A stretch of 64,000 nucleotides of DNA from Glandiceps talaboti (taxonomy: Eukaryota; Hemichordata; Enteropneusta; Spengelidae), in assembly GCF_964340395.1 (NCBI RefSeq), contig NC_135553.1, positions 25,191,449 through 25,255,448 of the forward strand, read 5' to 3'. Position numbers and translations under genes: made by a program. This document shows positions 30,401-61,100 of this stretch, one piece after another (the first letter of the stretch is position 1; each line of letters opens with the position of its first letter). The notes beneath the pieces are model-generated. The model did no database searches. It was not told the DNA's origin and saw nothing but the letters and a program-made list of their open reading frames with translations.

Positions 30401-33400
30401 AGGCTGTAGACCCTAAGATAGCACACAGGGTATCTGGTATCATGAGGCTGTAGACCCTAAGATAGCACACAGGGTATCTGGTATCATGAGGCTGTAGACC
30501 CTAAGATAGCACACAGGGTATCTGATATCATGAGGCTGTAGACCCTAAGATAGCACACAGGGTATCTAGTATCATGAGGCTGTAGACCCTAAGATAACAC
30601 ACAGGGTATCTGGTATCATGTTAAAATCATGAAATGATAAATAGATTTATTTTGTTTGATTGACAGTGTGAAACAGAGTGGCAGCATTTCTTAAGACAGT
30701 GTGTGGAGGTGATAGCAAGGGTAGCCGAACTCTTACCAAGTGAAGCATTCAGTTTGATGGTAAGTGATAGGTCATCTAAACTACATTTCTAGAGATGACA
30801 CAAGCCAAATTGCTGACAATCATTTCATACCTTTACATTCTAGTTTGGAGTACAATTCTTAATACATTATCTACTAGTTTACTTTTATTACAGAAGTATA
30901 ATCTAAAGCCACCGTGGTCACCTGTATGGAGAGTGTATGAAATAATACATTGACATAATAAAATTGATAAATTATTCACAAGCTAGCCTCTTCTTTTTAT
31001 TCCACAGTATCCACCATTTCATGAATACTCGGATGTCTATTTAGGTCTTCAAATGCATGTTGTTGATGCTGTTGGTGGGGGTAAGTTATGACTGATATTG
31101 AGTAGTGGTCATAGAGGGCAGTATATTGGAGGGGTAAGTTATGACTGATATTGAGTAGTGGTCATAGAGGGCAGTATATTGGTGGGGGTAAGTTATGACT
31201 GATATTGAGTAGTGGTCATAGAGGGCAGTATATTGGAGGGGTAAGTTATGACTGACATTGAATAGTGGTCATAGAGGGCAGTATATTGGAGGGGGGTAAG
31301 TTATCACTGATATTGAGTAGTGGTCATAGAGGGCAGTATATTGGTGGGGGTAAGTTATGACTGATATTGAGTAGTGGTCATAGAGGGCAGTATATTGGTG
31401 GGGTAAGTTATGACTGACATTGAATAGTGGTCATAGAGGGCAGTATATTGGTGGGGGTAAATTATGACTGATATTGAGTAGTGGTCATAGAGGGCAGTAT
31501 ATTGGTGGGGGTAAGTTATGACTGATATTGAGTAGTGGTCATAGAGGGCAGTATATTGGAGGGGGGTAAGTTATGACTGATATTGAGTAGTGGTCATAGA
31601 GGGCAGTATATTGGTGGGGGTAAGTTATGACTGATATTGAGTAGTGGTCATAGAGGGCAGTATATTGGTGGGGGTAAGTTATGACTGATATTGAGTAATG
31701 GTCATAGAGGGCAGTATATTGGTGGGGGTAAATTATGACTGATATTGAGTAGTGGTCATAGAGGGCAGTATATTGGTGGGGGTAAGTTATGACTGATATT
31801 GAGTAGTGGTCATAGAGGGCAGTATATTGGAGGGGGGTAAGTTATGACTGACATTGAATAGTGGTCATAGAGGGCAGTATATTGGTGGGGGTAAGTTATG
31901 ACTGATATTGAATAGTGGTCATAGAGGGCAGTATATTGGAGGGGGGTAAGTTATGACTGACATTGAGTAGTGGTCATAGAGGGCAGTATATTGGAGGGGG
32001 GTAAGTTATGACTGACATTGAATAGTGGTCATAGAGGGCAGTATATTGGTGGGGGTAAGTTATGACTGATATTGAATAGTGGTCATAGAGGGCAGTATAT
32101 TGGAGGGGGGTAAGTTATGACTGACATTGAGTAGTGGTCATAGAGGGCAGTATAGTGGTGGGGGTAAGTTATGACTGATATTGAGTAGTGGTCATAGAGG
32201 GCAGTATATTGGAGGGGGGTAAGTTATGACTGACATTGAGTAGTGGTCATAGAGGGCAGTATATTGGTGGGGGTAAGTTATGACTGACTTTGAATAGTGG
32301 TCATAGAGGGCAGTATAGTGGTGGGGGGTAAGTTATGACTGATATTGAATAGTGGTCATAGAGGGCAGTATATTGGTGGGGGTAAGTTATGACTGACATT
32401 GAATAGTGGTCATAGAGGGCAGTATATTGGTGGGGGTAAGTTATGACTGATATTGAATAGTGGTCATAGAGGGCAGTATATTGGTGGGGGTAAGTTATGA
32501 CTGACATTGAATAGTGGTCATAGAGGGCAGTATATTGGTGGGGGTAAGTTATGACTGACATTGAATAGTGGTCATAGAGGGCAGTATGTTGGTGGGGGGT
32601 AAGTTATGACTGATATTGAATAGTGGTCATAGAGGGCAGTATATTGGTGGGGGTAAGTTATGACTGATATTGAGTAGTGGTCATAGAGGGCAGTATATTG
32701 GAGGGGTAAGTTATGACTGACATTGAATAGTAGTCATAGAGGGCAGTATATTGGTGGGGGGTAAGTTATGACTGACATTGAGTAGTGGTCATAGAGGGCA
32801 GTATATTGGTGGGGTAAGTTATGACTGACATTGAATAGTGGTCACAGAGGGCAGTATATTGGTGGGGGTAAGTTATGACTGACATTGAATAGTGGTCATA
32901 GAGGGCAGTATATTGGTGGGGGTAAGTTATGACTGACATTAAATAGTGGTCATAGAGGGCAGTATATTGGTGGGGGTAAGTTATGACTGACATTGAATAG
33001 TGGTCATAGAGGGCAGTATATTGGTGGGGGGTAAGTTATGACTGACTTTGAATAGTGGTCATAGAGGGCAGTATAGTGGTGGGGTAAGTTATGACTGATA
33101 TTGAGTAGTGGTCATAGAGGGCAGTATATTGGAGGGGGGTAAGTTATGACTGACATTGAGTAGTGGTCATAGAGGGCAGTATATTGGTGGGGGTAAGTTA
33201 TGACTGATATTGAATAGTGGTCATAGAGGGCAGTATATTGGAGGGGGGTAAGTTATGACTGATATTGAATAGTGGTCATAGAGGGCAGTATATTGGTGGG
33301 GGTAAGTTATGACTGACTTTGAATAGTGGTCATAGAGGGCAGTATAGTGGTGGGGGGTAAGTTATGACTGATATTGAATAGTGGTCATAGAGGGCAGTAT

Positions 33401-58100: not shown

Positions 58101-61100
58101 ATCTAGTTTATTCTTGTCATGTTTATGTAATATTGTGTTATATAGTATATATAAGAATTATTTTACTAATGACTGTTTTTGGTTTAATGTCTAAGAATTT
58201 TTCCTATTAAATTGTGTTATACAATATATGCAAGAATTATTTTTATTAACAACACTATGTTTTTTATTTATTATGTCTAAGAATTTTTGTTGATAAAATG
58301 TGCCATAAGTATATGCAAGAATTATTATTTACTAATTTTTGGTTTAATGTGTAAGAATTATTCCTAACATTTAATACTGGTAATAAAATCACATGGTAAC
58401 AAAAGAGAAAGTTTTGAATGAATTGTGTTTACCTACCTGTATAACGATAGTATTCTGCACTAATATATAGAGTTGGTGTAGTTGTCTGGATGGAATAGCT
58501 AAGTTCCCATCCTCTACATTTAGAAGTGATCGGTGCATACCTCTATGCAAACTGACTAGGTGACAGCTGAACTCTGTTGACAGCATCACATCCCAAAAAT
58601 ACAATGCACTGGCTAAAATAAAAATAAAGTAGGCTTTACAATTTTATTTTGTATTATAATACTATAAAATGAAACTCATCAGAGCACTTTAAATGTGTAA
58701 GAAATTTCAGAGTGGTTGTGAAGACTAAGAAGTCATATTTACATGGATGGACACAATGATGAAGAAGTATAGTGCCACCAAGTGGCCATCTACTGAAATA
58801 CTACAAATAAAAGTTTTACCTCTGTACATAGATCATCTATTGATCATATATCAGTTGTTTAGGGTGAAAGAACAAAATCTTTAATCTTTAAATATTCAAC
58901 TAAACCTTCACTGACATCTGAAGCTGCACTCCCTATTTATGATGGTAAATAAATGCTCATCATGTACCAACTTTGTTTCTATTTCATTTTCAGGGCAATT
59001 TTGTGTTGTCTGTATGTGTCACAATGTGGTTTTTATACAGATGTGTAACTTTTGCGATAAGGGCTGTCGGTTTGGTAAACCACTTGCCTCTAACCCCTGA
59101 AGTTGGGGTTTGAGCCCTCTCTGGGTTAACAACAGTTTTTTGCCTACATTTTTAACACCATATGAGACATGTACCCTCACTGCACTTTTTAAAAAAATAA
59201 GAATTATACATTTCAGTATACTGATATGAAATACTTCAAGGGTGAAGTTACAAAAAAAAAAAAATAATTTAACAATTTACAAAAAGTTTCACATGCTGAG
59301 ACTATAAAGAAATTATGAGGCAAGGACAATTTTCATAGAACTGCACAGATTTTGACATACTAGTAGTTGATAGCATTCCTTGGCCAAAACTAACAACACT
59401 CATTATACTTTGCAATAGCGCCCCCACAGGCCAAACTAGTTACAAGTACATGATTGATAATCACAATATTGTATTACTAAGTAATCATTGCACCCAGCCT
59501 ACCTTGCACTACTGAGGAATTCTTTCCACTCACTAAGTTGACTAAATAATTGATGTTAAGGGATATTCTCTGTTCTGCCTACAATTAATAGATATAAACT
59601 TATAAATATTCTTTTTTCTGCTAATGTTCAAGTAACAGATACACTAGTACTGCAAGTTCTTTGTCTACCTATTAAAGGTAAAATGCACTTTCAACCATGT
59701 ATACACTAAAACCGCTTTTTTTCACAGCCTGGAATTGGCTACTAATACAACTGGGCAGATAGCACACTGTCATATACTGAACACTGAAGTTGACAACGTC
59801 AAAGTGGGAAACACTGCAAATAATAGACTTGTAACATGCAGAAAAACTAGTTAATTTGTGAATAATAGGGAAATTCAGTTAATGCAGCAATTCTTCACAA
59901 TTCTGAATATTAATCTGTCCCTATACATTTCTAAGTAGTGTGATCACTATTTAAAGTGAAGCTCTACATAAATGTAACTTAACACTGCAAACTTTCAATT
60001 TTCACTTTGAAATTGTTGTGAAACTTTGTGAACACTTACTTGTGTCTTGTGTTGGTGGAAAAGTTGAATCAACAAACTGATAGTGATTAAAGCTGTGCTC
60101 AAGTACACAGGTAAACAGATTAACTTAGCCCACTCTTCTAGTACTCTGAACAAGTAGTTATTGGACAACACCATGGATAACACTGTAAATAACAACAAGT
60201 ACACAGGTAAACAGATTAACTTAGCCCACTCTTCCAGTACTCTGAACAAATAGTTATTGGACAACACCATGGATAACACTGTAAGTAACAACAAGTACAC
60301 AGGTAAACAGATTAACTTAGCCCACTCTTCTAGTACTCTGAACAAGTAGTTATTGGACAACACCATGGCTAACACTGTAAGTAACAACAAGTACACAGGT
60401 AAACAAATTAACTTAGCCCACTCTTCCAGTACTCTGAACAAATAGTTATTGGACAGTACCATGGATAACACTGTAAATAACAATAACATTCATGTCTAAC
60501 TAGCTAGAGACCCCCCAGACATGTGAATACCAGTATGGTATATTGAAGGTATCAAAACAAGTAGTTATTGGACAGCACCATGGATAACACTGTAAGTAAC
60601 AACAAAAACATTCATGTCTAACTAGCTAGAGACCCCTAGACCAGTATGGGCATATTGAAGGTATTGAAACAAGTAGCTTTTGGACAGCATCATGGATAAC
60701 ATATTCATGTTAATACTAGAGTACCCTATGACATGTAAGTGCCAGTATGGCATGCTCAAGGTACCTGCATGATGGAATGCTTGCTGCTGTTCTTTGTGGT
60801 CATACCTGCAAGTAAAAGTGTAGCAGAAAACACAGCAAGTGTGAATTCTAATACCATAAATAACCACACTGCCACACACGCATCATGGGGTTAGCTGTTA
60901 CTATAATATTATATTACACCCAGAAAACTGTTGCAAAGTTGACCATGCACCAATCTGATTAAAATCCAATGTAGATGTCGGCTAATCATTCATTTTATCT
61001 TCGTTATTTTGCCTGAATTGACCTTCGTGGTACATGTTTACGTTTTTATCCTGATCGCCTCCTCTACATCTGAACTGGCGCCCGACATCTACATCAGATT

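Follow-up and report, generated by a model that had tools for sequence, protein, structure and literature searches.

Tandem arrays over exon-intron junctions in two neighbouring genes of Glandiceps talaboti

Tandem repeats over exon-intron boundaries are an already known kind of structure, termed "mirages", and Canestro et al. 2002 is said to be the primary paper on those of amphioxus. We describe here arrays of this kind in a 64,000-bp stretch of the Glandiceps talaboti genome (the window; NC_135553.1, 25,191,449 to 25,255,448), which lies on contig C6; the genome measures 590 Mb and has 47 contigs. In five arrays of the window the repeat unit includes a true splice junction; four of these lie in a plus-strand exportin-6-like gene and one in a minus-strand gene. 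They are probably the product of neutral local duplication that is purged from exons and tolerated at junctions, with a modest seeding bias being possible.

In amphioxus, the available text of PMC3087553 (2010) describes tandem repeats over the intron-exon boundaries of Adh3 and of the globin genes BflGb6 and BflGb9, and that of PMC3902484 (2013) adds PGBD5 and TnC; both report that splicing is undisturbed by the mirages. For human segmental duplications, the accessible sections of PMC2812944 (2009) give 27 cases of intron modification in which tandem repeats lie at exon-intron boundaries. The Rogers model, as far as the partial texts set it out, has introns gained via tandem duplication of an AGGT-containing sequence (PMC4974935; cited in PMC3087553). 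The accessible portion of an earthworm paper describes repeats in introns, none of them over a boundary.

The arrays of the window resemble the amphioxus mirages, as portrayed in these partial sources, in that minisatellite-like units (10-160 bp) lie over donors or acceptors, both types of site are hit, and the splice signals are repeated. One boundary is apparently used in amphioxus, and here the reading frame would favour the exon-proximal copy. The copy number is higher here (72 donors), and the rate was estimated across several hundred junctions, in contrast to the gene-by-gene amphioxus cases. The human repeats are also minisatellites at exon-intron boundaries (units of about 30 bp there), but the accessible sections of PMC2812944 report that they give rise to new introns and to alternative splicing among recent paralogs, whereas existing introns are enlarged here. 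The tandem duplication sets new splice signals side by side, as in the available outline of the Rogers model; unlike in that model, it occurs at existing introns, which it enlarges, and no new intron is shown. Unit length, array growth and internal block duplication are those of ordinary intronic minisatellites, from which the present arrays differ by having an exon edge within the unit.

Anatomy and reading-frame consequence of the window arrays

The positions of the arrays are collected in Table 1. The earlier note on this DNA had listed seven junction cases, and five of these are borne out as arrays, namely those over the donors of exons 12, 16 and 22, the acceptor of exon 23, and the minus-strand acceptor at 60182. 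The sixth, at the minus-strand exon 56143-56221, had to be given up, as its unit copies the exon interior (56149-56216) and includes neither splice site. The seventh, a relic of exon 6, survives as a copy that includes the donor but not as an array: a single dispersed segment matches 25996-26089 over the exon 6 donor at 26067, at a distance of 480 bp. If a mirage is taken to be an array whose unit spans a true boundary, five window arrays and seven or eight junctions of the genome sample described below (one of them ambiguous) belong to the class, and the array of exon-interior units does not. The window arrays sit at the borders of introns in gene models that read through. We also note that the donor of exon 6 is of the GC type (CAG/GCAAGT) according to the gene model.

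Table 1. Junction-spanning arrays of the window and related features (positions are those of the 64,000-bp stretch; TRF, Tandem Repeats Finder)
Feature	Positions	Strand	Basis and remarks
Exon 12, exportin-6-like gene	31008..31080	+	Gene model; its donor heads the series of 72
Exon 12 donor-spanning array, about 54 bp x 71	31072..34942	+	TRF; GT donor search
Exon 16 donor-spanning array, 29 bp x 19	38030..38586	+	TRF
Exon 22 donor-spanning duplication, 58 bp x 2	41908..42023	+	TRF
Exon 23 acceptor-spanning array, 67 bp x 4.4	42430..42727	+	TRF
Acceptor (60182) array, minus-strand gene, 96 bp x 4	60100..60483	-	TRF; translation
Exon 6 end and donor, one dispersed copy in intron 5	25516..25610	+	Local alignment
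Exon-interior array, 71 bp x 17, unit without splice site	56320..57526	-	TRF; alignment

The exon 12 array is the largest and holds 72 GT donors at a spacing of 53-55 bp, with an identical donor 9-mer in 69 of the 72 copies. The copies are nearly identical throughout, with 11 of 46 compared positions being variable, one of which lies within the donor hexamer. The search motif by itself fixes eight of the first nine of these positions, but its 72 matches against 71.5 copies counted by TRF indicate that hardly any copy was missed. The array further contains an internal block repeat at an offset of 975 bp with 404 identical bases, which is a sign of recent exchange or growth. In the exon 16 array, the searched donor motif is retained in 18 of the 19 copies, and the exon 23 array presents five acceptors between 42408 and 42684.

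The choice among these sites was judged from the reading frame alone. In the exportin-6-like gene, 92 of the 93 alternative sites lead to a premature stop and a single one keeps the frame. This holds for all 71 alternative donors of exon 12, for 16 of 17 in the exon 16 array, which contributes the exception, for the one alternative donor of exon 22, and, in exon 23, for each of the four alternative acceptors, the last acceptor (42684) alone keeping the frame. The 96-bp array of the minus-strand gene behaves otherwise: the frame of the exon is open across all four copies, and each upstream acceptor, if used, would add 32 residues, so that variation in protein length is possible.

Duplicated junctions in a genome sample

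Stretches of the same genome were picked by homology to the Pfam myosin head, neurotransmitter symporter and TCP-1 chaperonin families. The three profile searches gave at least 78, at least 102 and at least 57 candidates, respectively; 141 of the 237, lying in or near the sampled stretches, were used, and 128 lay inside. The sample comprises 57 segments with 236,946 bp and 128 profile-found exons. Arrays were accepted at a period of at least 15 and a TRF score of at least 60, which left 57 in the sample. Further exons came from a splice and codon predictor trained on the profile-found exons of the sample together with the window exons; at the threshold used it predicted 217 exons, compared with 18 when the sequence was reversed. 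In a test independent of TRF, a 24-mer centred on each junction was searched for a near copy within 800 bp; it covered 445 of 451 junctions, the others lying at segment ends or in low complexity.

The arrays are real, and they occur outside the window too: the junction-spanning pattern is present on five further contigs, where the units are distinct and the copies have diverged. Over several overlapping tests, for which uncorrected P values are given throughout, 2-3.5% of the junctions were found within such duplications. The earlier note had proposed a comparison with random placement and held that the pattern is not expected by chance. Carried out on this homology-chosen 237 kb, the comparison upholds that statement weakly, with 5-11 cases seen against 1.9-6.3 expected, a 1.6-3-fold excess, with P mostly 0.006-0.10 and 0.19 for the strictest count.

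Arrays spanned seven of 228 profile-found junctions, and random placement of single founder units expects 3.1 (P 0.035); the same count with six or five cases gives P 0.088 or 0.19. Sorted by their start, five arrays begin within about one unit inside the exon edge, whence the count with five cases, and three deeper. With the exon predictor, ten spans were observed over 451 junctions and 6.3 expected (P 0.10). In the 24-mer test, 13, 10 and 9 of the 445 junctions were duplicated at 20, 21 and 22 matches of 24 (P 0.007, 0.031 and 0.035). These counts include the two junctions of an exon that is probably false; this predicted exon lies inside an array at C13:22171760 (plus strand), and its junctions were dropped from the distance and random-placement analyses. 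At the same three levels, and weighted by copy number, 1.31, 1.13 and 0.99% of intron but 0.32, 0.29 and 0.23% of exon interior are duplicated, which amounts to an about 4-fold depletion of exon interiors.

The dependence on distance was followed at 449 junctions. Inside the exon, duplications cover none of 443 positions at -60 bp and 11 of 439 at -12 bp; on the junction they cover 11 of 443, and in the intron 12 of 414 at +24, 18 of 376 at +200 and 10 of 286 at +500. Duplication coverage thus climbs from exon to intron, with no peak on the junction itself. The level at the junction lies between those of exon and intron, with an excess of at most about three-fold over random seeding. Of the eight duplicated profile-found junctions, six belong to myosin genes; the one from a symporter gene is ambiguous, and the one from a chaperonin gene is a weak match. 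The case at C15:4952363 is ambiguous, the repeat continuing within the exon, and that at C17:9657201 is visible only at the looser match.

Explanations of the arrays

Short local duplications of about 15-150 bp would arise at a high rate at any place in transcribed DNA; slippage or unequal exchange would then enlarge them into arrays. A unit within an exon would usually be eliminated by selection. A unit over a donor or acceptor would leave one whole boundary to the exon, in which case the exon-proximal copy would be spliced and the other copies would turn intronic. A mirage would then result where the founding unit of a minisatellite chances to span an exon-intron boundary, and such arrays would be tolerated, nearly neutrally and with up to 70 copies, because the exon keeps one complete boundary and the surplus copies become intron. 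Tolerance and exon-proximal splicing would together explain most of what was observed. The row of 72 near-identical donors, of which the exon-proximal one alone would give an intact protein, is a natural test of splice-site choice. If the excess at exon ends is not real, a high duplication rate with purifying selection would by itself yield a pattern that seems purposeful.

Several results weigh against neutral duplication as the whole account. When random placement is modelled with the far points as the scale, 11 junctions are covered and 4.6 expected (P 0.008), and at 12 bp inside the exon the corresponding numbers are 11 and 3.1 (P 0.0004); for profile-found exons only, 8 of 227 junctions are covered against 2.6 expected (P 0.006). 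The window is also richer in duplicated junctions than the sample. The TRF-free test found 5 of 77 duplicated in three of its genes (47 junctions of the exportin gene, 16 of the minus-strand gene and 14 of a U2AF-like gene) within a search radius of 1500 bp, compared with 800 bp for the sample. The resulting P values, 0.001-0.0035 relative to the intronic rate of the sample and 0.008-0.04 relative to its junction rate, are biased because the window was chosen for its arrays. In addition, the open-frame array of the minus-strand gene could be functional, and boundary repeats in human segmental duplications are reported, in the accessible part of PMC2812944, to alter splicing.

The random-placement results can be read as evidence that, beyond a general rate that is already high, duplications are preferentially seeded at exon ends or splice junctions, for which R-loops, pausing or microhomology rich in GT/AG might be responsible. 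We regard this as possible but rather unlikely, and as doubtful, to a slightly greater degree, the specific proposition that tandem duplications start two- to three-fold more often at exon ends than elsewhere in genes, with some 2-3% of junctions bearing mirages. Seeding accords with the 1.6-3-fold excess in the homology-chosen sample, with the TRF span count if all seven cases are admitted, and with the 24-mer test, which, however, contains the two junctions of the probably false exon. The profile-found exons give P 0.010 at 12 bp inside (6 against 1.8 expected) and, under the stricter match, P 0.044 at the junction (5 against 1.9); the same match gives only P 0.14 at -12 bp (3 against 1.3). 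Under the looser match, donors reach P 0.014 (5 against 1.4), whereas acceptors alone stand at P 0.13 (3 against 1.3). The predictor-based count and the TRF count with five or six cases also speak against seeding, as do the overlap of the tests, their uncorrected P values and the lack of a peak on the junction itself.

A genome-wide count of the donor motif CAGGTAAGT bears on the same question. The motif occurs 7510 times and its reversed letters 5869 times; two copies lie 20-49 bp apart in 625 and 249 instances, respectively, or 8.3% and 4.2% per occurrence. This difference favours seeding, but a few large arrays dominate the pair counts, and the distinct arrays among the matches listed, on contigs C1-C3 and on C4 below 2.12 Mb, number 8 for the motif and 4 for the control, too few to tell. 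A test of the donor motif in array units, in which the top 1, 2.5, 5, 10 and 20% hold 2, 5, 7, 12 and 19 of 57 (P 0.11, 0.014, 0.023, 0.010 and 0.013), is given little weight because units with the motif antisense to the gene were included. Separately, a large array whose 38-bp units carry perfect CAGGTAAGT motifs was noticed at G000:C2:31286592-31289526. A modest excess at exon ends, if true, would suggest that mutation is biased at transcribed boundaries and that introns can grow by this route. In a host that is no lancelet, true seeding at exon ends would make this the second lineage in which mirages are a genome-wide habit, and a natural experiment on how splicing selects among dozens of identical donors.

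The earlier note, whose observation was largely right and whose interpretation is partly supported, had also suggested that arrays of redundant splice sites may be selected, and could act as sinks for the U1/U2 small nuclear ribonucleoproteins (snRNPs) or control retention. We consider such a function very improbable, be it the binding of U1/U2 snRNPs by redundant donors or acceptors or the regulation of retention or of alternative length, with selection maintaining the arrays. The intact 9-mers of exon 12 and the open minus-strand array with its potential 32-residue steps would fit such a role, but the exon 12 copies are near-identical over their whole length. The preserved motif needs no selection because the copies are nearly invariant and probably young, and it is the one observation that favours selection for redundant sites; nothing that was found supports the proposed U1/U2 snRNP sink or regulated retention, and the premature stops that alternative sites would cause in the plus-strand gene argue against a function. 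That the arrays are assembly artefacts is scarcely credible: big arrays carry a known assembly risk and nothing else was found in favour, whereas distinct units with diverged copies appear on five other contigs. In amphioxus, according to the available text of PMC3087553, a similar array has been examined in two haplotypes, though its draft-genome version was misassembled.

Gene models and neighbouring features

The model of the plus-strand gene was assembled by joining exons at GT/GC-AG borders, and its 24 exons form a single open frame of 1149 codons including the stop. The product has IBN_N and Xpo1 domains, and the solved structures closest to its first 805 residues are exportins. The gene is thus predicted to be exportin-like, and "exportin-6", the label of the earlier note, is a candidate name. 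The eight exons of the minus-strand gene join in frame to 316 codons; it found no match in the PDB up to E 1 and a sub-threshold match only in Pfam. An Rfam scan of the window at gathering thresholds gave no match. The window contains 42 TRF entries, and its G+C content in 2-kb steps is 0.31-0.43.

Head to head with the exportin gene, on the minus strand at 11833-20031, lie exons with an RS-rich stretch that we take, by eye, to be those of a U2AF large-subunit-like gene. Within the exportin-like gene, intron 3 holds at 23580-23860 a candidate short interspersed nuclear element, tRNA-like and with an ATT-rich tail, that was spotted by eye. Intron 14 contains a 21-bp array of about 41 copies (36395-37250), within which a minus-strand exon is predicted at 36409-36760. 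A predicted plus-strand exon at 53736-54053 encodes Gly-X-Y collagen-like repeats, with a 45-bp coding repeat at 53739-53836, and these are followed by what resembles a putative C1q domain.

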